Shown here piece by piece: positions 1-11,539 of a DNA stretch of 11,539 nt. Under the pieces are notes generated by a model, which did no database searches, was not told the DNA's origin, and was given only the letters and a program-made list of their open reading frames with translations. Source of the stretch: Gemmatimonadota bacterium (lineage in GTDB: Bacteria > Gemmatimonadota > Gemmatimonadetes > Gemmatimonadales > Gemmatimonadaceae); NCBI GenBank assembly GCA_003222065.1, contig QHUV01000249.1, forward strand, positions 1 to 11,539. Direction: 5' to 3'. The number at the start of each line of letters is the position of its first letter. The stretch's first letter is position 1. The translations under genes were made by a program, and so were the position numbers.

Positions 1-816
1 GACGGGCGTCCCGTTCAGCCAGCGAAACGCGTCGTCCGCGTACTCCATGGCGCCCTCAAAGGCAAACGGCCGCGCGTGCGCCTGCCACCCGGTGAGTGCT
101 GGCGTTAGGCCGTCGGCGACGTCCGGGCTCGTGTAGAGAAAGCACCCGCCAGGCCCCCCGCACAGCCACTTCAAGACGCCGCCGGTCAAGAAGTCGACGC
201 CCAGCTGGCGCACGTCCACGGGCATGACGCCGACCGAATGAAACGCGTCGAGTGAGACCAGGGCGCCGGCATCGTGCGCCCGCCGGCAAATGGCGTCGGC
301 ATCCATGATGAACGCCGACCGAAAGAGCACGTGTGAGATCGCGACGAGTCGTGTACGCTCATCGATCGCGCCGAGCAATCGGCCCGTGTCGATGGTTACG
401 CCGTCCTCGGTCGGCACGACGACGACGCGCGCGCCTAACCGCGTCGCCAACCGATCATACACGTACCGGACGGACGGAAAGTCGAGCTCCGTCATGACGA
501 TCGTGTCGCGCGGTGGCGTGTAGTCGAGCGCCGACAGCACAGTCGCTTGGCCGATTGTGACGTTAGGCACCATCACCACTTCGCCCGACGCCGCGCCAAT
601 GAGCGGCGCGATCTCGTTGCCGACCTCCACCGGTTTCCTCCACCACCCCTCGGCCCCGGCCCAGGCCCGAACTCCGAGCTCCGCCCATTCGTCGACATAC
701 TCGGCGAGACGATCCGGGACGCCGCGCGGCATCGCGCCTAACGAGTTCGAGACGAGATACGTCGTCCGATCGAGAATCGGAAACTCGGCGCGAAAGGCCA
801 GCAGTGGATCGGCCAT
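1..816 (-). CDS. Kynureninase-like class V (fold type I) PLP-dependent enzyme, C-terminus outside window
   Basis: Partial gene: 272 codons from ATG at 816 to the window edge, with no stop. Seen: near the N-terminus a YLVSNSLG segment (about residues 20-27) matches the NSLG motif of kynureninases. FPSVRY (113-118) lies where that family has FPSD-Y. LDAFHSVG (189-196) supplies the PLP-contacting Asp190 and His193. GGVLKWLCGGPGG (212-224) holds the likely Schiff-base Lys216. TGWQAH (242-247) also matches kynureninase. Known: kynureninase hydrolyses kynurenine or 3-hydroxykynurenine to anthranilates plus alanine in tryptophan breakdown. Odd: the residue before the lysine is Leu215, where kynureninases normally have a phosphate-binding Tyr, and the FPSD Asp is Val, so the substrate may differ. 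A good Shine-Dalgarno (AGGGG, 821-825) precedes the start, and the ATG shares one base with the permease stop (TGATG), suggesting translational coupling. It could also be a cysteine desulfurase- or epimerase-like member; the fold is secure, the reaction is not. Confidence 0.85.
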   Translation of the reverse strand, partial: MADPLLAFRAEFPILDRTTYLVSNSLGAMPRGVPDRLAEYVDEWAELGVRAWAGAEGWWRKPVEVGNEIAPLIGAASGEVVMVPNVTIGQATVLSALDYTPPRDTIVMTELDFPSVRYVYDRLATRLGARVVVVPTEDGVTIDTGRLLGAIDERTRLVAISHVLFRSAFIMDADAICRRAHDAGALVSLDAFHSVGVMPVDVRQLGVDFLTGGVLKWLCGGPGGCFLYTSPDVADGLTPALTGWQAHARPFAFEGAMEYADDAFRWLNGTPV

Positions 817-2171
817 CAGTCCCCTGCCGGATCCGCGACCGCCGCTGTCCGCCGCGAACGCGCCGCGAAGTAGAATACCGCCGCGAGCGCCGCCACCGAT
901 AACACAGCGATCCACTCATCGAGCTGCAGTTTCGTCAGAAAGGCAACGATCACCACCAACGCAAGCCATGGAACCACTCCCGCGCCCGGTACGCGAAATG
1001 GAATACCACCCGTGCGTACGTCGCGACGGCGCAGCTCGACCGTCGCGAGACAACAGGCAACGTACACGAGCAGCACCGAGCCGTTGGCGATGATAGCGAG
1101 GCGTTCGAAGCTTCCTGTCGCTGCCAGGATGGCCACGAGCACCGTTTGAATCGCGATCGCGCGATGCGGCGTACGAAACCGCGGGTGGACGGACGCAACG
1201 CCGCGCGGAAGAAATCCGTCGCGAGCGAAGGCAAACAACATCCGAGGTAAAGCGAGCGTGACCCCGCTGACATATCCAAACATGCTCACCGTCGAGCCGA
1301 CGAGAATCAGCGTCCGGCCCCAGCCGCCGAACGCCACGCCTGCTGCATCAGCGACCGGTGTCTTCGCCGCGGCGAGGTCGGCACCGAGCAAACCCTGTGA
1401 AACGACTTGCACGGCGACATACAGCAGCGCCACGAACCCAATAGCTATCAGTACGGCATGCGGCACCGTACGCGCCGGATCCTTCACCTCACCGCTCGGC
1501 ACCAGCGCCGCTTCGACGCCGAGGAACGCGAAGATGAGGACCATCGAGGCTCGGCCAACGGCGCCCGCCGACGGCGCGTATTCCCAAGATAGATTCGCTC
1601 GTCGCATCGCGAAGGCGCCGACAGTGATGAGCAATGCCAGGGGTAAGAGCTTCGCGACTGTTGCGATCGCGTTGAATCGACTGGCGTCCCGGACGCCCCG
1701 CACGTTCAACACCGCAAGCGCCGCCAGAATGACAAGCATCACCGTCCCCTTCGCGAAGGGCGAAGAGAGCCAAGGCAGCAGCGCGGCAAGCGAATCGGCC
1801 AGGAAGCTCGTGACGGCCGCAAACGCCGCGGTGATGCCGGCCCAAAGCAGGACGCCGCTGATGAATCCGACGAAGGGACCGAACGCAACTTCCACATATG
1901 CGTACGGTCCCCCCGTCGACGCCACGCGGCTTCCCGCCTCGGCGAAGCAAAGCACGATGAGCCCCATCGCGATTGCACAGAGCAAGTACGCCAGCGGCGC
2001 GGCGGCGCCAAGCGTCGCGGCCACGCTCGACGGGAGACGAAAAATCCCCGCGCCGACCGTGATGTTCACGATCCCCGCTGCCAAGCCCCATGTTCCGAGC
2101 GCGCGAATCAGGGACGCGTCGCGCGCAAGCTCGTGCTCGTCTCGTCTTTTCTTGTCGCGCATTGCCTTCAA
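816..2171 (-). CDS. APC-superfamily amino acid permease
   Basis: An inner-membrane amino acid or amine transporter of 451 residues, the usual size for the family. Seen: the first helix carries the unwound substrate-binding motif GAGIFRLP (40-47). STGGPYAYVEVAFGPFVGF (86-103) and a conserved loop, FLGVEAALVPSGEVKDPART (216-235), are typical of the amino acid/polyamine/organocation family. The rest alternates hydrophobic stretches consistent with about 12 membrane helices, ending in a basic cytoplasmic tail. Start: the frame opens with TTG at 2171, with ATG three codons later at 2162. Neither has a convincing ribosome binding site, and an upstream mini-ORF with a strong site ends three bases before the TTG. 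The gene is followed directly by the kynureninase-like gene with a one-base overlap, so I infer the substrate is an amino acid or derivative used by that enzyme. The family is secure; the substrate is unknown. Confidence 0.9.
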   Translation of the reverse strand: MKAMRDKKRRDEHELARDASLIRALGTWGLAAGIVNITVGAGIFRLPSSVAATLGAAAPLAYLLCAIAMGLIVLCFAEAGSRVASTGGPYAYVEVAFGPFVGFISGVLLWAGITAAFAAVTSFLADSLAALLPWLSSPFAKGTVMLVILAALAVLNVRGVRDASRFNAIATVAKLLPLALLITVGAFAMRRANLSWEYAPSAGAVGRASMVLIFAFLGVEAALVPSGEVKDPARTVPHAVLIAIGFVALLYVAVQVVSQGLLGADLAAAKTPVADAAGVAFGGWGRTLILVGSTVSMFGYVSGVTLALPRMLFAFARDGFLPRGVASVHPRFRTPHRAIAIQTVLVAILAATGSFERLAIIANGSVLLVYVACCLATVELRRRDVRTGGIPFRVPGAGVVPWLALVVIVAFLTKLQLDEWIAVLSVAALAAVFYFAARSRRTAAVADPAGD

Positions 2172-2203: not shown

Positions 2204-2334
2204 CGCTAATCTCCTGGTGATCGCGAGCTGCCCCGTTGACGCGAACCGCCGGTTACGCGTCATCTTTCTGGGCAGATTCGCGAGATGGCGCGGATCTTTC
2301 GCCGTTTCACGAGACCTCGAAAGGAGCAATTGGA
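2204..2334. promoter_or_regulatory. Divergent intergenic region between permease operon and small exported protein
   Basis: About 130 bases separate the two divergent transcription units, so both promoters must lie here or overlap the leader. A TTGACG hexamer at 2236-2241 on the plus strand resembles a -35 box, but I see no good -10 hexamer at standard spacing (CATCTT at 2261-2266 is poor). The plus-strand ribosome binding site AAGGAG is at 2321-2326. I see no clear operator or riboswitch fold. Confidence 0.3.
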
Positions 2335-2691
2335 ATGAACGCCTACTCTCGTGCTGCCCTGCTCTCGGTGTCCTTACTCACGCTGGTCTTGCGCGCGCCG
2401 GTGAGTCGCGCACAAGCCGTATCGTCTTCCCCGCCGCCCGTCACAACGAACGTGACCCAACAGGTCGGACCGACTCCTGCCGCACTTTCCGTCGCCGTGC
2501 ATGCGCCGCTGCCGGCAGCGACGTCAGTACAGTCACGCGGGAACGCCGGCCTCGGTCAGTCGGAAGCGATGATGATCGTCGGCGGCGCCGCCATCCTCGT
2601 CGGAGCAATCGTCGGCGGCAACGCCGGCGACGTTTTCATGATTGGCGGCGCGGTCGTTGGGCTGTACGGGTTGTACAAGTTCCTGCAATAG
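2335..2691 (+). CDS. Small exported Gly-zipper-like hypothetical protein
   Basis: A 118-residue protein of unknown function. Seen: the start at 2335 has an excellent Shine-Dalgarno, AAGGAG, eight bases upstream. Residues 1-28 form a signal peptide (Arg near the start, Leu/Val-rich core, cleavage likely after SRAQA). Residues 29-75 are a low-complexity Pro/Ala/Thr/Val linker. Residues 80-117 form a hydrophobic segment full of glycine doublets (IVGGAAILVGAIVGG, then FMIGGAVVGLYGLYKFL), which could be two glycine-zipper helices inserting in a membrane. The mature protein is therefore probably anchored in the envelope by its C-terminus. It lies eight bases upstream of the patatin-ferredoxin gene on the same strand and is probably cotranscribed with it. 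An alternative reading, an open frame beginning upstream at 2236, has no ribosome binding site and would bury the signal peptide. Confidence 0.8.
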   Translation: MNAYSRAALLSVSLLTLVLRAPVSRAQAVSSSPPPVTTNVTQQVGPTPAALSVAVHAPLPAATSVQSRGNAGLGQSEAMMIVGGAAILVGAIVGGNAGDVFMIGGAVVGLYGLYKFLQ

Positions 2692-2699
2692 TTCTGACG

Positions 2700-3824
2700 A
2701 TGGGCAAAACGACTGGTGGTGGCAGCGGCAAGCGCGTCGCACTCGTACTCGGTGGCGGCGGCATGAAAGGCTTCGCGCATATCGGCGTTCTGCGCGCGCT
2801 CGACGAGCGCGGAATAAAACCGAGTGTGTACGCCGGTACGAGCATAGGCGCGCTCATCGCCGCTGCCGCCGTCGGTCGCATGCCGGTCGAGGAAATGGCG
2901 CGCCGGGCGGAAAGCCTTCGACGCCGTGACCTCTTTCGGATCAATCACTTCGGGATGCTGCTCGAGCGAATGCGGTCTCCGGCGATCTACATGGAGGAGC
3001 CGCTTCGCGATTTGTGTCGCAGCATCGTGCCGCCGCAACGCTTCAGCGATCTCGGCGCGCCGCTGCTCGTGAACACCGTCGACATCACCCGCGGCACGCA
3101 ACTCGTCTGGGGAATGCCGGGGCTGCGTGACGTCTGGGTGCAGGACGCGGTCTATGCGTCCTGCGCACTGCCGGGTTTCTTCCCCCCTGGCGAGGTGGGC
3201 ACGCGGCTTTGCGTCGACGGCGGCGTGATTGACAACCTCCCAGTCGGTCCCGCGTCGCTCAACGCGGACGTCGTGATCGCCGTGGATGTCGGCAGCTCGG
3301 ATCTCTTACCGACGAATGACATCGTCACGCAAGGGTTCGCGTCCATCTACATGCGCGCCGCGACGACGATGATGCACGCGCTGCAACAGTATCCGCTGAT
3401 ACGCTGGGACGGTCCGCCGATGTTGTTGATCCGGCCGAAGCTCGGCCAGGACTGGCTCAGCTTCAGCAACGCCGCGGCAAGCATCGACGAGGGCTATCGC
3501 AAGGCCTCACTGGCGCTTCAGGATTTTGACGCTGTGCTCGAGCAGCCGGGCGGGGTTTTTCCGCGACGGCGTGTGTCGATCGATGTCGATCGCGACAAGT
3601 GCATCGGCTGCGGTCTCTGTGTTGCCTTGGCGCCCGCGGTCATGGGAATGGACCAAAGCGGGAAGGCCTTCGCGCGCTCGCCCACCGCTGACTGGTCGAC
3701 TGCGGACGGCGAGTTCGTGCACCATTGCCCGACCTGCGCGATCGACATCCAGAAGATCGAACGCCTAACGCCGTCCTCGTCGAACCCCGCCCAGCGCGGA
3801 CCCAGCGAAGCCGACGCCGCGTAG
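2700..3824 (+). CDS. Patatin-like phospholipase fused to a C-terminal [4Fe-4S] ferredoxin domain
   Basis: A 374-residue protein. Seen: residues 12-195 form a patatin domain with the oxyanion-hole glycine loop GGGGMKG (18-24), nucleophile elbow GTSIG (46-50, Ser48) and catalytic DGG (173-175, Asp173), so the Ser-Asp dyad is complete. Residues about 290-350 form a single-cluster ferredoxin domain: CIGCGLC supplies Cys301, Cys304 and Cys307, and HCP supplies Cys343; Cys346 is extra. Known: patatins are lipid acyl hydrolases; such ferredoxins carry one [4Fe-4S] cluster. There is no signal peptide, so it is probably cytoplasmic or membrane-peripheral. Inference: the cluster could sense redox state or iron, or tether a partner to the hydrolase. 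Start: ATG 2700 lies eight bases after the preceding stop, without a clear Shine-Dalgarno, suggesting coupling. The frame is open upstream to 2217, but that part is antisense or out-of-frame noise. The 3' end overlaps the convergent M20 gene by 60 bases. Confidence 0.9.
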   Translation: MGKTTGGGSGKRVALVLGGGGMKGFAHIGVLRALDERGIKPSVYAGTSIGALIAAAAVGRMPVEEMARRAESLRRRDLFRINHFGMLLERMRSPAIYMEEPLRDLCRSIVPPQRFSDLGAPLLVNTVDITRGTQLVWGMPGLRDVWVQDAVYASCALPGFFPPGEVGTRLCVDGGVIDNLPVGPASLNADVVIAVDVGSSDLLPTNDIVTQGFASIYMRAATTMMHALQQYPLIRWDGPPMLLIRPKLGQDWLSFSNAAASIDEGYRKASLALQDFDAVLEQPGGVFPRRRVSIDVDRDKCIGCGLCVALAPAVMGMDQSGKAFARSPTADWSTADGEFVHHCPTCAIDIQKIERLTPSSSNPAQRGPSEADAA

Positions 3825-4993: not shown

Positions 4994-7540
4994 ATGTCCT
5001 CCACCAACTCCTTCGGCAGCCGCGCGACGCTAAACGTCGGCGGCCAGCGGTTCACCATTTACCGTCTCGACGCGATCGTGAAGCTCGGCGGCAACGCACA
5101 GCGGATCAACCCGCTGCAGCCCGTAGATCTCGTCATCGATCACTCGGTGCAAGTCGATGAATACGGTACCGATGCCGCGTATCTCATCAACACCGGACTG
5201 GAGGTCGACCGCAACAAGGAACGGTACGTCTTCCTGCGCTGGGGCCAGGACGCCTTTCGAAATTTTCGGGTTGTCCCGCCCGGCACTGGCATCTGTCACC
5301 AGGTGAATCTCGAGTACCTCGCGAAAACCGTCTTCACGTCAGAGGAAAACGGAGAGACGGTCGCGTATCCGGATTCGCTCGTCGGTACGGATTCGCATAC
5401 GACGATGGTGAATGGCCTTGGTGTGCTGGGCTGGGGTGTCGGCGGCATCGAGGCAGAGGCCGCGATGCTCGGCCAACCGGTCTCGATGCTCATTCCCGAA
5501 GTGGTCGGCTTCCAGCTGCATGGACGTCTTCCCGCCGGCGCAACGGCGACCGATCTCGTCCTCACCGTCACGCAGATGCTTCGCCAGAAGAAGGTCGTCG
5601 GGAAATTCGTCGAGTTCTACGGCACCGGCCTAACGGGGCTGCCGCTCGCCGATCGCGCGACGATCGCTAATATGGCGCCCGAGTATGGCGCGACGATGGG
5701 GTTCTTCCCGGTTGATGAGGAAACGCTCAAGTATCTCCGCATGACCGGCCGGCCCGAGCCGCACGTCAAGCTTGTCGAGGCCTACACCAAGGAGCAGGGA
5801 CTCTTTCGCATCGACTCGACGCCCGATCCCGTATTCAGCGATATGCTCGAGCTGGATCTTGGTACTGTCGAGCCCAGTTTGGCAGGGCCCAAACGCCCGC
5901 AGGATCGCGTTCCGCTGCGGAACGCGAAGCAGATGTATCGGGACGCCTTGCAAGCGGATCTCGCCAAGATCGGTTCGCCGGCAGCGGCTGCCGACGCCAA
6001 GCGCGCGTCACGGCAAGGTGGATCATCGGCGTCGTCAGGCACCGCGGTGCTCGTTGCGAACGACGAGGTGGCCGCGGAGCAGGCCGGCGTGAAGGTAGCG
6101 TACAAAGGCGAGACCTTTACGCTCCGTCATGGCGCGGTCGTCATCGCCGCGATCACGAGCTGTACCAACACATCCAATCCAGCCGTGATGCTGGCCGCGG
6201 GTATGCTTGCGAGAAACGCGGTCAAGCGTGGCCTTACGGTGAAGCCGTGGGTAAAAACATCGACCGCGCCCGGCTCGCGCGTCGTCACCGAGTATTACAA
6301 AGCGGCCGGTCTCCTCGAGTACTTGGACAAGCTTGGCTTTCAGATCGTCGGCTATGGCTGCACGACCTGTATCGGGAACTCCGGCCCCCTGCCCGATCCG
6401 ATTGCCAAAGCGATCGAAGACCAAAAGCTTGTCACCGCCGCCGTGCTGTCGGGCAACCGAAACTTCGAGGGCCGCGTCAATCCGCTTACCCGGTTCAATT
6501 ACCTCGCCTCGCCGCCGCTCGTCGTCGCGTACGCCCTTGCCGGCCGCATGGACATCGACCTCACCAAGGAGCCGTTAGGCATCGGCAGCGATGGGCCGGT
6601 CTTCCTTCGCGACATCTGGCCGTCGCCGCAGGAGGTGCAGGACGAGATCAATCGCAGCGTAAAAAGCGAGTTCTTCAAGACGCAATACGCCGACGTTTTC
6701 CGCGGCGACGAGTTCTGGCAAAAGCTCCAGGTGCCGCGCGGAGAGACCTTCGCATGGGATGAGCGCTCCACCTATGTCAAGAATCCGCCGTATTTCGACG
6801 ACATGGATGTGGAACCGCCTGGCATTCGAACGATTACTGGCGCGCGCGCGCTCGCTCTGCTCGGCGACTCGATCACGACCGACCACATCTCGCCCGCCGG
6901 CAACATTCCCGTCGCGGGTCCCGCCGGCAAATGGCTGATCGCTCACGGCGTCGAGCGAAAGGATTTCAATTCCTATGGCGCTCGCCGCGGCAATCATGAG
7001 GTCATGATGCGCGGCACGTTCGCGAACATTCGGCTGCGCAACGAAATGGTGCCCGGTACCGAGGGCGGCTACACGACGACGCAACCGGGCGGTGCGCCGA
7101 CGTTCATCTACGACGCGGCGATGGAGTATCAGAAGGCTGGCACCCCGCTCGTCGTCATCGCCGGCAAGGAATACGGCACCGGCTCGTCGCGCGATTGGGC
7201 GGCGAAAGGCACGATCCTTCTCGGCGTCCGCGCCGTGATTGCCGAATCGTTCGAGCGAATCCACCGATCGAATCTTGTCGGCATGGGCGTGCTCCCGCTC
7301 GAGTTTACCGATGGCGAGACGCGGCAATCGCTTGGCCTCACCGGGTTCGAGACCTACGACATCGTCGGGCTGGACGCTTCGTTGCGACCACGCGCGACGC
7401 TCGTCGTCCGCGCGAGAGATCAGAGCGACAGGAAGGAGTTCAAGGTGCTCGCCCGAATCGATACCCCTGAGGAAATGCAGTACTACCGGCATGCCGGCAT
7501 TCTACCATACGTCTTGCGTCAGCTCGTCGGACGGCGATGA
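4994..7540 (+). CDS. acnA: Aconitate hydratase A with an in-frame N-terminal deletion
   Basis: Aconitase interconverts citrate and isocitrate in the TCA and glyoxylate cycles using a [4Fe-4S] cluster. Seen: residues 1-26 match the usual AcnA opening ([12 protein letters not shown], then IYRLD). The sequence then jumps straight to IVKLGGN and [15 protein letters not shown] (38-52), which normally follow about 80 residues later. Everything after is intact: IDH (48-50), CHQVNLEYL (101-109), GTDSHTT (131-137), cluster cysteines Cys390, Cys456 and Cys459, SGNRNFEGR (486-494), the swivel domain from about 610 with [13 protein letters not shown] (625-637), and GTGSSRD (728-734). Length is 848 against the usual 890-920. 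The missing block normally contains LLEN-LR and QDFTGVPAVVD, including the active-site Gln (Gln72 in mitochondrial aconitase). The start lies after GAGAGA (4982-4987), a weak Shine-Dalgarno. The stop overlaps the next gene by ATGA. The family is certain; activity of this allele is doubtful. Confidence 0.93.
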
Positions 7541-8538
7541 TGGGTGTGGCCCCGCACAATTCCCGCTGCGTCTCGCGACCCGCTGCCACGCGCCGCCTGC
7601 TCGCGCGTGCGCGCGGGCGCGCGCTGCTCTTCGCCGTCGCCGGCTCGTGCCTAACGGCTGCCGCCGACGGCTGTTTCCTACGTAAGTACGTGTATCATCC
7701 CGTGCTCGTCGCGAACGCCATCGGCGATTCGACGACGACCATCTCCGGAACGCCTCTGCACGTCTACCGGAGCGACGAGTACGAGCTCTACGGACCGACA
7801 CCCTTGTCGGTGAGCACGGCGGAACAACAGGTCAATCGCGCATACCGCGAGTTCGTGAAGCATTTTGGCGTTCAGCCGCCGCCGATGGCCATTGTCATAG
7901 CCGATAGCAGCTTTACGATAACACCGAGCGACGCGGCCGTGTTCGCGAAGCGGCGCATCCACACCTTCGTCTACGTTCGACCCCACAACCTCCGCGACGT
8001 CGAAGGCATCTCGCCCGATACGCCGGAAGATGAAATCTGGCCCGTGTCCCCGCGCGTAGCGCGGGAGCTCGTCACGGCGTATGTCGAGGCTCGACGAGGT
8101 GTCGCGCCCGTCGTCGAAACGACGACGCACGCCGGTGACTTTCACGCCGATCCATTGCCGTTTTGGTATCTCGACGCCGTCGTCGCGCTCCTCGGTGATC
8201 CGGGCGCTCCCGATCGCGTCATGGCGTACCTTCGCGATCACCTCGCCGATGCGCCATCGGTCGCGACGCTGCTCGATATGCGGCCGCCTAACGTGGGCGC
8301 GGTGGATACGGTCGCCGCGTCACGCGACCGGCGCATCATTGTCGGCGCCGCCGGCGTTGCGCTCACGCTCTTCCTCGTCGAGCGCGAAGGCCCGCGAGTC
8401 GTTGGAAAGCTGGGTGAGGTTTTTCTGGCCGGCGGCACGGCGCGCGACGTCGTGAATCAGGCGCGTCGGGTGCCCCAGAACGATCGTGAGCTCGAGCGGG
8501 TTTGGCGCACGTGGGTCCGCGAAGAGTATGGCCGCTGA
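7537..8538 (+). CDS. Exported hypothetical protein, degenerate gluzincin (peptidase-MA-like) fold
   Basis: A 333-residue protein. Seen: residues 18-45 look like a signal sequence (several Arg, then a hydrophobic core). It ends near ADGC (43-46), which could be a poor lipobox. Residues 100-125 ([21 protein letters not shown]) resemble the opening of peptidase-MA-like domains. [15 protein letters not shown] (173-187) lies where such enzymes have HELTHAYV: the first His is Arg176, the Glu is kept (Glu177) and the second His is Thr180. [12 protein letters not shown] (208-219) lies where P-W-xx-EGLA is expected, with the metal Glu changed to Asp213. The C-terminal part (about 270-330: [12 protein letters not shown], then [11 protein letters not shown] and the W-rich end) matches the family's helical tail. 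Inference: a catalytically dead member in the envelope, perhaps binding peptides. Its ATG overlaps the aconitase stop by four bases, so expression is probably coupled. The fold call is from pattern memory only. Confidence 0.6.
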
Positions 8539-8552
8539 TCGAGCGGACGCCT

Positions 8553-8570
8553 ACCGGCGCTTCAGCCGGT
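8553..8570. terminator. Short hairpin between convergent gene ends
   Basis: ACCGGC (8553-8558) and GCCGGT (8565-8570) form a perfect 6-bp stem with a six-base loop, in the gap between the plus-strand gene ending at 8538 and the minus-strand gene whose stop lies in the loop. No T-run follows on either strand, so any termination activity would be weak. Confidence 0.25.
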
Positions 8571-8981
8571 GGCGCGTTTCAGCGCCGTTCTCGCTTTCTC
8601 GCGCTCGCCCCAGCTCGGGGCAAGCTCTTTCGCCGCCGGCACACACCGCGATTGGGTGCTCGCTGCATTCGGAGCGCCCATCGGCAACCAGCCCATGATA
8701 CATCGCGTGATCGCCGCGATCTCGTCGGCTTCCAGAAGCCCCGCGTTCCCACTCGACCCGCCGCCGAGCGCCCCGAGCGTCGTGCCCGGGCGCGGCGTCA
8801 TCGATCCACCGAGTAGAGAAAGCAGCGAGTCGCGCGCAACCTTCCGGAACTGATCGCTCCGGACCTGACCGGTGTTTTGTTTGTGGTCGCCGCGATAGAA
8901 CGCGTGCACGGATCCCTCGACGCTCTTCACGAGCTGGTCGAGGACGTCATCCAATTGCTGCGCAACCTGCGATGGAATCAT
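8562..8981 (-). CDS. Hypothetical protein (139 aa)
   Basis: I do not recognise this protein. Seen: a strong ribosome binding site, GAGGAG, ends seven bases before the ATG at 8981, which supports a real gene. Residues 1-28 are an amphipathic, acidic helix-like stretch (SQVAQQLDDVLDQLVKSVEG). Residues 29-60 are mixed and polar, ending in SLLSLLGG. Residues 61-82 are a Gly/Ser/Pro-rich linker, and 83-100 (LLEADEIAAITRCIMGWLP) could be a second helix. There are two cysteines and no signal peptide. Codon third positions are GC-rich as in the neighbours. It converges on the degenerate-peptidase gene (23-base gap) and lies downstream of a strong terminator, so it must have its own promoter at about 8990-9055. 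Confidence 0.65.
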   Translation of the reverse strand: MIPSQVAQQLDDVLDQLVKSVEGSVHAFYRGDHKQNTGQVRSDQFRKVARDSLLSLLGGSMTPRPGTTLGALGGGSSGNAGLLEADEIAAITRCIMGWLPMGAPNAASTQSRCVPAAKELAPSWGEREKARTALKRATG

Positions 8982-9542: not shown

Positions 9543-9699
9543 CTACCCACTATGTCCAGCTGGGCGACGTCCGATGTCCCCAAGATTGGACTGCATGCCC
9601 GAGTGAACCAAAAGGAGGAGTCTCGACTTTCTTGTCATTCCAAGTGCTGACAACTGACCACAGATCGAGCATTTTGAATAGTCTTCATCAGGAGCAGCG
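9543..9699. other. Lower-GC intergenic stretch upstream of the peroxiredoxin
   Basis: About 157 bases with G+C near 51%, well below the surrounding genes. It starts exactly where the Gly-zipper reading frame breaks off. It contains AAAGGAGGAG (9610-9619), a near-perfect Shine-Dalgarno with no good start codon at proper spacing. It must also hold the peroxiredoxin promoter, though I find no convincing hexamer pair. The peroxiredoxin's own ribosome binding site AGGAG is at 9690-9694. I recognise no RNA fold. Confidence 0.4.
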
Positions 9700-10305
9700 A
9701 TGACCAACCGTGCCGTTCCTCGTTTGATGCAGTTCCTGCTCGCGCTTGCGATCGCTCGGCCAATCGCACTCGCGAGCGCACAGCAACCGGCAGCGCCGCA
9801 GGCTGCTCCCACGCCCGATGTTGGCTCAATCGCGCCAGACTTCGCTGTCACCGGTGCAACACGATTCGGTCTTCTCCGCGACTCAGTTCGCCTATCTGAC
9901 TTCCGCGGCCAGACGGTGGTGCTCGCTTTCTTCTTTCAGGCGCGGACCAAGGGCTGAACGATCCAAATGGAGGCGTACCGTGATCAGTACGCCACACTGT
10001 TCAACGGCGGGAAGAAGGTCGTCCTCCTCGGCGTCAGCGTCGATCCCGACACGATGCTCGCAAATTGGGCCCGGGAGTCCAGCTTCCCCGTCCTCTTCGG
10101 CAGCGACCCCGACCAAAAGGTTGGAAAGCTCTACGGCTCGACGCGCGGCAAACTCGACACGCGCAATCTCTTCGTGATCGGTCCGGACGGCCGCATCACC
10201 TTTAAGCAGGTGCCCGTCAACGTGCTCTCACAGGAAGCGTACGCGGAGCTCGGCAAAGCGATCGCGCGCACCGTCGGCGGTGGCACCGCCGAAAAGGAGA
10301 AATAG
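9700..10305 (+). CDS. Exported peroxiredoxin (AhpC/TSA, BCP-like), candidate selenoprotein with Sec86 encoded by TGA
   Basis: Peroxiredoxins reduce hydroperoxides through a peroxidatic Cys or Sec. Seen: ATG 9700 has AGGAG five bases upstream. Residues 1-27 are a signal peptide (cleavage likely after ALASA), followed by a Pro/Ala/Gln linker to about 40. The fold follows: APDF (45-48), RLSDFRGQTVVLAFF (64-78), then ARTKG, TGA, TIQMEAYRDQY. The TGA (9955-9957, codon 86) sits exactly where BCP-type enzymes have the catalytic Cys of T-x-x-C. The same frame continues without any other stop through SVDPDT (113-118), SDPDQKVGKLYG (135-146) and TRNLFVIGPDGRI (154-166, conserved Arg155) to a TAG at 10303-10305. 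The reading with Sec is 201 residues. No cysteine occurs anywhere. A hairpin with SECIS-like placement follows the TGA. Alternatives are a Cys (TGC) to stop mutation, or a sequencing error. A monocistronic unit is likely, since a terminator follows. Confidence 0.8.
9955..9993 (+). promoter_or_regulatory. Putative bacterial SECIS element (UGA plus downstream hairpin)
   Basis: After the in-frame TGA (9955-9957), GGCGTAC (9972-9978) and GTACGCC (9987-9993) form a perfect 7-bp stem with an eight-base loop, CGTGATCA (9979-9986). The loop begins 21 bases after the TGA and has G as its second base. This agrees with the known bacterial pattern (loop about 16-37 bases from the UGA, a G in the first two loop positions, stem of at least four pairs), which recruits SelB. 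The hairpin lies within coding sequence, as bacterial SECIS elements do. Confidence 0.6.
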
Positions 10306-10349
10306 CGATTCGCGTCTCGCCGCACGAGGCGGGCATCAGGTTACGCGAC

Positions 10350-10380
10350 AACCGCCGGTGCGTCTCCCACCGGCGGTTTT
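10350..10380 (+). terminator. Rho-independent terminator after the peroxiredoxin
   Basis: AACCGCCGGTG (10350-10360) and CACCGGCGGTT (10368-10378) form a perfect 11-bp stem with a seven-base loop, followed by a short T-run that begins within the right arm (10377-10380) and a further TTT at 10384-10386. It ends transcription about 45 bases past the peroxiredoxin stop and isolates that gene from the kinase downstream. Confidence 0.85.
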
Positions 10381-10393
10381 GCCTTTCTCGCAC

Positions 10394-11539
10394 GTGCCTA
10401 TCGCGTTTTCCTCGAGCTCCGTGTCGAATTCCCGCGACCTGCTGAAACAGCTCTACGAAGCGGCGGTGGCTGGGGCCGCGACTGGGCCCGTCACCAAGCG
10501 AGCCGTCGAGGCACTGGGAATTCCGCGCGATCGGCGCGTCTGGTTGCTCTCCTTCGGGAAAGCGGCGCACGACATGGCCGCCGCCGCGGCCGCGTCGCTG
10601 CAGCGATCGCTCAATCAGGTCGTCGGCGGTCTGATCGTCGCACCTAACGACGCCCCGCCGCCATATGGAACGATCGCCGTCATGGCCGGGGATCATCCGG
10701 TGCCCGGGCCGCGGTCGTTCGCCGCGGCTCAACGCATCAGCGAGATCGCGGCCCGCATGAAGAGTGGAGATGTCGCGCTCGTGCTCGTGAGCGGCGGCGC
10801 GACGAGTCTCATCGCCGGCCCGCTTCGGGGCATGAGTGAGTCCGAGCTCACGCGCGTGTTCGAACTTCTCCTCGCCTCCGGACTGGACATTGGCGCCGTG
10901 AACGCGGTCCGCCGGCGCTTCGCGCGCTGGGGGGGTGGCCGACTGGCCCTCGCCATCTCGCCCGCGGCGGCACACTGCCTCGCCGTGTCGGACGTGCCCG
11001 GCGATGATCTCGCCACGATCGGATCCGGCCCCAGCGTGCCCGATCCTTCTACTGCCGACGAGGTCATCGACATTCTCGAGGAGGCGAAGCTGTTCGACCG
11101 ATTGCCGACGTCCTTTCGCACGTACGCGACCGACGTCTCTCGCGGCGCTGAGCCGGAGACACCCAAAGGAGGTCATCCGGCGTTCGCGCACGGCACCGCG
11201 CGTGTGATCGCCAACAATCGTGGGGCGCTCGATGCCGCTGCGGAAAAAGCGCGCTCGTTAGGCGCTGCGGCGGTATACGTCGTCGACGCGCCACTCATCG
11301 GCGAAGCGGCGTCTGCTGGTGAGGCGATCGCGCGCTGGTTGCTCGACCTGCGCGCGAAAAGCTCACTTCCATCCGGGGCGCACGCGCCGCGTATCGCCAT
11401 CTGGGGCGGCGAAACAACCGTGACGTTGCGCTCATCATCGGTGCGCCGGGGCACCACGCCGACGCCTCCACCTCCCGGCGGCCGTTGTCAGGAGCTGGCA
11501 CTCGCCGCCGCTCGCGTGCTGCACGACGCCGGTGAGCGA
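10394..11539 (+). CDS. Glycerate 2-kinase, MOFRL family (GckA/TtuD type), C-terminus outside window
   Basis: Partial: 382 codons to the right edge, open at the end. Known: this family phosphorylates D-glycerate to 2-phosphoglycerate with ATP in serine/glyoxylate or sugar-acid breakdown in the cytoplasm. Seen, in order: FGKAAHDM near residue 54, holding the conserved catalytic Lys; AGDHPVPG near 99; SGGATSLIAGP near 133-143, the glycine-rich phosphate loop; LASGLDIGAVNAVRR near 160-174; VSDVPGDDLATIGSGPSVPDPST near 198-220, the family signature; then WGGETTVT near 338 and GGRCQELAL near 361, the start of the MOFRL domain with its conserved Arg. Odd: the usual RKHLS after N-xVR is RRRFA. Start: GTG 10394 is the first plausible start after the terminator; GTG 10421 is an alternative. 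Neither has a good Shine-Dalgarno. The nearby terminator makes its promoter location unclear. Confidence 0.88.
   Translation, partial: MPIAFSSSSVSNSRDLLKQLYEAAVAGAATGPVTKRAVEALGIPRDRRVWLLSFGKAAHDMAAAAAASLQRSLNQVVGGLIVAPNDAPPPYGTIAVMAGDHPVPGPRSFAAAQRISEIAARMKSGDVALVLVSGGATSLIAGPLRGMSESELTRVFELLLASGLDIGAVNAVRRRFARWGGGRLALAISPAAAHCLAVSDVPGDDLATIGSGPSVPDPSTADEVIDILEEAKLFDRLPTSFRTYATDVSRGAEPETPKGGHPAFAHGTARVIANNRGALDAAAEKARSLGAAAVYVVDAPLIGEAASAGEAIARWLLDLRAKSSLPSGAHAPRIAIWGGETTVTLRSSSVRRGTTPTPPPPGGRCQELALAAARVLHDAGER

Follow-up and report, generated by a model that had tools for sequence, protein, structure and literature searches.

A peroxiredoxin gene of a Gemmatimonadota bacterium with an in-frame UGA that is very probably read as selenocysteine

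The window analyzed here comprises the 11,539 nucleotides of contig QHUV01000249.1 from the genome of a Gemmatimonadota soil bacterium of the family Gemmatimonadaceae (assembly GCA_003222065.1), a draft of 3.73 Mb in 736 contigs that is 82% complete. The gene under study (Table 1) starts with an ATG at 9700-9702, contains a single in-frame TGA at 9955-9957 and ends with a TAG at 10303-10305. When the TGA is counted as a residue, one frame yields a protein of 201 amino acids with no second stop inside. A first-pass annotation, made from the letters alone, had described two open segments in the same frame, parted by a single TGA and free of any further lesion, and the ATG-to-TAG frame was confirmed to have this one interruption and no other stop. 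The segment limits quoted there are right as to the frame, but 9700-9957 includes the TGA itself, and 9967 is merely the first in-frame ATG afterwards. As also claimed, TGA acts as a normal stop elsewhere in the window, where it ends the open reading frames 816-2171 (-), 4994-7540 (+), 7537-8538 (+) and 8562-8981 (-). That both segments together form one complete peroxiredoxin was borne out by the PF00578 (AhpC-TSA) model, which matched residues 41-168 of the joined protein with 79.8 bits (cut-off 26), as against 20.1 bits for the piece before the TGA and 39.2 bits for the piece after it.

Table 1. Features of the peroxiredoxin locus, with positions in the window
Feature	Position	Strand	Basis or remark
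Peroxiredoxin CDS	9700..10305	+	201 residues, ending with TAG; UGA codon 86 probably read as selenocysteine
AGGAG 5 nt upstream of the ATG, likely ribosome-binding site	9690..9694	+	Read from the sequence; function inferred
Likely signal peptide, residues 1-27, hydrophobic, ending ...ASA/QQ (slash: end of peptide)	9700..9780	+	Translation judged by eye
Codon 79, Phe, at the Pro place of PxxxTxxC	9934..9936	+	Translation and alignment
Thr83 of the TxxU active-site motif	9946..9948	+	Invariant in 55-protein alignment
In-frame UGA, codon 86, peroxidatic position, probably read as selenocysteine	9955..9957	+	74 orthologous genes have TGA here, 25 have TGC or TGT
SECIS hairpin	9972..9993	+	Conservation, covariation, folding, fit to published model
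Arg155, likely active-site Arg	10162..10164	+	Invariant in 55-protein alignment

The gene very probably encodes a peroxiredoxin with one selenocysteine; the protein is probably exported, given the signal-peptide-like start of the translation, judged by eye. The active-site motif reads T83-K-G-U86. Thr83 and Arg155 are present in the window protein and invariant in 55 aligned proteins, and Arg155 is the residue that we take to be the active-site Arg of the peroxiredoxin family. The Pro of the PxxxTxxC motif is replaced by Phe79. The window protein contains no Cys at all and thus has no resolving Cys, and in the 99 genes considered below no other Cys was found in the aligned part, which begins 44 residues ahead of the active site. 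A structure model built with 55 sequences had a mean pLDDT of 87.1, with a low-confidence N-terminus. Foldseek matched this model best to a BCP chain (9a4d_B) and further to human Prx1, a Burkholderia AhpC-type protein and Sulfolobus Bcp4 and Bcp1; these matches to BCP and Prx1-3 chains indicate a thioredoxin-like fold.

Of the 41 related genomes, among which the window's own is counted, 28 have the UGA orthologue. Among the fetched peroxiredoxin loci, TGA stands at exactly codon 86 in 74 distinct genes from 73 genomes, which belong to several families of the phylum, and Cys (TGC or TGT) stands at the same codon in 25 genes from 24 genomes, in agreement with the earlier placement of the TGA at the catalytic Cys position. 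These 74 and 25 genes are all distinct sequences with an alignment score above 290 in a non-random sample, consisting of the best matches plus picks that cover Cys forms and other families; lower-scoring matches (of BCP type, UN type or otherwise distant) were not included, nor were identical copies. One UGA gene (L102) and one Cys gene (L041) each have one additional TGA inside the aligned stretch; that of L102 should lie upstream of the gene, the stretch between stops having only the catalytic TGA. A weaker match with one TGA in genome G027 has TGC at the catalytic codon and was not counted, and the catalytic codon is likewise TGC in distant matches of this kind in G005 and G023. A Cys copy and a UGA copy occur in tandem in seven genomes (L040/L098, L107, L109, L110, L111, L121, L122), and G272 has two UGA copies (L142). 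A scan of named genomes yielded two loci, one in a draft of Gemmatimonas sp. (L144) and one in a distant planctomycete.

Among the 120 homologues listed out of 1251 found, 64 measure 110-142 amino acids and all of these start with MEAYRD, i.e., at the first Met after the UGA, which indicates that in many assemblies gene calls were cut short by this UGA. The other 56 of the 120 are longer, 52 of them with Cys at the site and four with Trp, presumably a TGA translated by another code. The two listed homologues with an organism name belong to Gemmatimonadaceae. The short homologues could also be taken as a sign of two polypeptides, an 85-residue piece ending at the UGA and a 112-residue piece started separately at the ATG at 9967. 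All 64 start at that Met, as gene callers do at stops, and the ATG is preceded by AAGGG at a distance of 13 nt; however, His replaces this Met in two of the 74 UGA genes (L042, L143), the second piece would have an incomplete domain and no peroxidatic residue, the Cys orthologues are single chains, and the association with tRNA-Sec described below would be left unexplained. We consider two separate products very improbable.

Directly behind the UGA, the RNA can form a hairpin of GGCGUAC (9972-9978), the 8-nt loop CGUGAUCA (9979-9986) and GUACGCC (9987-9993), which starts 14 nt past the UGA and has a UGA-to-loop spacing of 21 nt. The 51 nt from the UGA fold with -16.9 kcal/mol (z -3.3; one of 200 shuffles was as good), and the 22-nt hairpin alone with -10.3 kcal/mol. 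In the available text of PMC13188914, the bacterial SECIS model comprises a loop of 3-9 nt, an upper stem of 4-16 bp, a G in the first two loop positions, a spacing of 16-37 nt and a minimum free energy (MFE) of at most -7.5 kcal/mol; the hairpin agrees with every point given there (8-nt loop, 7 bp, 21 nt, -10.3 kcal/mol), the loop having G at position 2, followed by U. A local hairpin with an MFE of at most -7.5 kcal/mol was obtained for 73 of the 74 UGA genes as against three of the 25 Cys genes. Rfam yielded five matches within 9900-10100, each below the gathering score of its family.

The core of the hairpin, GCGUAC-CGUGAUCA-GUACGC (20 bases, up to two mismatches allowed), and the UGA gene were found in precisely the same 28 of the 41 genomes; the core lies within that gene and shows no mismatch in 26 of these. 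A control pattern, the core read backwards, was not found in the 41 genomes. One extra copy of the core with two mismatches lies outside the peroxiredoxin gene (G019:C42:79099-79118).

The hairpin is nearly frozen in the 74 UGA genes, including its synonymous sites, but not in the 25 Cys genes. In the UGA genes, the Arg codon of the hairpin is CGT in 70 cases, CGG in four and CGC in none, the Asp codon is GAT in 72, and both Tyr codons are TAC in 74 of 74, whereas the Cys genes have CGC in 20 of 25, GAC in 18 of 25 and TAT as the first Tyr codon in 10 of 25. Elsewhere in the same UGA genes, CGT makes up 9% of the Arg codons, GAT 29% of the Asp codons and TAC 78% of the Tyr codons; TAC is less informative for the hairpin because it is common anyway. 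CGT and CGG alike satisfy the published G[G/U] loop rule. Codon skew was also observed outside the hairpin: for Arg82 (9943-9945), CGC is used by 22 of 25 Cys genes vs 3 of 74 UGA genes, and at codon 89 (9964-9966), where every one of the 74 UGA genes encodes Gln, CAA stands in 62 of them vs 3 of the 25 Cys genes.

The five inner pairs are invariant and are by themselves silent on pairing. The outer pair joins two wobble bases, each at the third position of its codon. In the UGA genes it is GC in 38, CG in 12, UA in nine and AU in one (paired in 60 of 74, unpaired in 14); it is formed in five of the 25 Cys genes. In L121, two amino acids have changed (A to T and A to V), and the next pair is kept as AU. 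Over all seven pairs and 67 distinct rows, 22 cells had changed on both sides, as against 6.3 +/- 1.8 in shuffles that ignore relatedness; the covariation score was reached by none of 500 shuffles, and the covariation vanished when the partner was slid by one to three columns. One of the five measures, 'further pair types', gave no excess over shuffles (4 vs 4.4), and the Cys genes showed no covariation excess in the hairpin. On the tree, the outer pair requires 12 type changes; the tree-independent comparisons for this pair (2, 1 and 2 pairs) never pointed in the opposite direction and are too few for significance.

Selection was purifying before and after the UGA, with dN/dS of 0.04-0.06 on both sides against both congeners (dS > 1), so that close relatives show no decay, contrary to what had been named as grounds for rejecting the selenoprotein. 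A decayed gene, with the TGA as a genuine nonsense mutation, or a sequencing error, with TGC called as TGA, has practically no probability in our assessment: although TGA is one base from TGC and the draft genome is fragmented, an error of this kind is untenable when 73 genomes of several families share the TGA, the low dN/dS continues after the TGA in a frame without other stops, and the hairpin is kept alongside UGA and not alongside Cys.

The alternation of Cys and selenocysteine codons at position 86, which the first-pass annotation had proposed to look for, was found. UGA forms are interspersed with Cys forms on the tree, with six or seven changes in two trees, of which well-supported branches force five or four, and a single Cys clade was rejected (AU p 4e-7). 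The Pro position of PxxxTxxC is occupied by Pro in 25 of 25 Cys forms; in the 74 UGA forms it holds Phe (39), Pro (18), Tyr (13), Ile (3) or Val (1). A test on four independent pairs gave one direction or no difference and is too small for significance. We suggest tentatively, and with rather less than even confidence, that selenocysteine loosened the active site of this peroxiredoxin, the Pro having given way in 56 of the 74 UGA forms while the Cys forms nested among selenocysteine forms carry it. If this is true, the phylum would offer a natural series of active-site residues made dispensable by selenocysteine.

A search of the window's genome for the selenocysteine machinery, as had been recommended, recovered tRNA-Sec, selD and, cut off by a contig end, half of selB, but not selA; a genome devoid of this machinery, which had been named as grounds for rejection, was thus not observed. 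The tRNA-Sec (77 bits; anticodon TCA according to ARAGORN) lies on contig C8 directly after selD (385 bits). This selD (G000:C8:414-1524, L009) has an in-frame TGA of its own, with the tRNA-Sec gene directly next to it, and is likely a second selenoprotein of this genome. The selB family model yielded nothing above its cut-off in this genome; residues 332-611 of a congener's SelB, however, found a match with 72% identity that includes both SelB winged-helix domains and ends 2 bases from the contig end. The family model missed selB because only its C-terminal half is assembled. Neither the family nor the congener's protein detected selA in this 82%-complete draft; selA is present in both congeners (G001, G002).

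Among the 28 UGA genomes of the set of 41, tRNA-Sec, SelA, SelB and SelD were found above cut-off in 26, 25, 24 and 27, respectively. In eight of the 41 genomes all four are absent, and so is the UGA orthologue; four genomes (G018, G027, G037, G038) have tRNA-Sec yet no UGA orthologue. The two UGA genomes without tRNA-Sec keep other genes of the system (G014: SelA and SelB; G032: SelA, SelB and SelD), which points to assembly gaps. Across the phylum sample, tRNA-Sec was found in 214 of 298 genomes. It is present in 107 of 117 genomes with TGA forms (no match in the other 10) vs 2 of the 22 in which all forms are stop-free or have a TAA (Fisher 8e-15, a value that ignores relatedness). This table covers the 139 of 240 genomes with a match, and the place of the TGA was checked in the fetched ones only; the matched stretch has an added TAA in G238 and a second TGA in G182, and G195, one of the 22, has a TAA. 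Regarding published data, PMC5649159 reports SelA/SelB from most of its sponge-symbiont bins, which span various phyla and include Gemmatimonadetes, and according to PMC6070768, mine soils rich in selenium showed an enrichment of Gemmatimonadetes, among them a Gemmatimonadaceae OTU.

The UGA might instead be read through as Cys or another residue, at least under selenium scarcity, given that 25 relatives have Cys at the site and that the inserted residue is not readable from the sequence. This is set against a genome that has tRNA-Sec with anticodon TCA next to selD, along with the SelB winged-helix domains, and against a hairpin retained with UGA and not with Cys, and we regard such read-through as having only a slight chance of being correct. 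The selenocysteine reading is supported about as well as sequence alone permits. By the established course of bacterial selenocysteine insertion, SelB would bind the hairpin and bring Sec-tRNA to the UGA, and translation would run on to the TAG at 10303. By analogy with the peroxiredoxin family, the selenolate of exported Sec86, activated by Thr83 and Arg155, would then reduce H2O2 or organic peroxides and be converted to the selenenic acid. Because the protein has no Cys, the oxidised selenocysteine would have to be reduced by an outside thiol, which may be a periplasmic thioredoxin-like protein or a small thiol.

Several known systems are similar in part. Rv2238c, which we take to be AhpE, belongs to the same family and has solved structures, to which the window protein is only distantly similar (1xvw, 4x1u; sequence match E 1.5e-6). 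It is a cytoplasmic peroxiredoxin of the one-Cys type with Cys at the active site, whereas the window protein is probably exported and very probably has selenocysteine. Likeness to BCP/PrxQ is seen in the top structural matches, which include 9a4d_B and Sulfolobus Bcp4 and Bcp1, and in the best NCBIfam match, the BCP model PRK09437 (NF006960), with 48.2 bits, under its cut-off of 140; unlike BCP/PrxQ, the window protein is probably exported, has no resolving Cys and very probably carries selenocysteine for Cys. Prx/PrxU of Eubacterium acidaminophilum shares the PF00578 domain, selenocysteine at T-x-x-U and a SECIS directly behind the UGA, as far as the available parts of PMC13188914, PMC2398784 and PMC1088965 describe it. 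The NCBI PrxU model NF040737 gave 42.8 bits with the window protein, under its cut-off of 270. Unlike Prx/PrxU, the window protein has Phe for the motif Pro and what looks by eye like a signal peptide, and its lineage is without further Cys across the aligned region of 99 genes and has a near-invariant hairpin in relatives phylum-wide.

The TxxU selenoperoxiredoxin is already known as a kind of enzyme; probable export, the absence of any other Cys, the mostly lost Pro, the phylum-wide spread and the nearly fixed SECIS set this lineage apart. No description of a peroxiredoxin selenoprotein from Gemmatimonadota was found in a literature search mostly restricted to sources other than subscription papers and bioRxiv, which covered the available text of, among others, PMC1794560, PMC5029168, PMC9312934, PMC8318568, PMC3281104, PMC4807772, PMC5579227 and PMC12013277. 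These observations suggest that a large soil phylum harbours a widespread selenoprotein whose gene is split in two by gene calls. With selenocysteine as the sole redox residue of a probably exported peroxidase, and with Cys forms and tandem pairs of both forms in close relatives, the enzyme would permit direct tests of the advantage of selenocysteine over Cys outside the cytoplasm, and the lineage also tests of a SECIS whose sequence hardly varies.

Two further types of peroxiredoxin with TGA at the catalytic codon were encountered. One is of the BCP/PrxQ type, with the motif TPGU or TSGU (L086-L090 and L097, from G002, G007, G011, G015, G013 and G016), and has a stable predicted fold behind the UGA, computed without a shuffled control; it was not among the two matches in the window's draft genome, for which no dedicated search was made. 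The other, which makes a third AhpC/TSA type, has the motif NNTPGUN and its TGA in the same position (L091, L092 and L101, from G022, G040 and G039).

No obvious reductase partner was found among those neighbours of the gene, a minority, that were identified. The downstream neighbour (10280-11539) is a DUF4147 gene, presumably glycerate-kinase-like, and similar long open reading frames, judged by eye, follow the peroxiredoxin in L016, L018, L021 and L144. Further upstream in the window, 2217-3824 encodes in one frame a patatin-like phospholipase followed by a 4Fe-4S ferredoxin-like tail (PF01734, PF13459).
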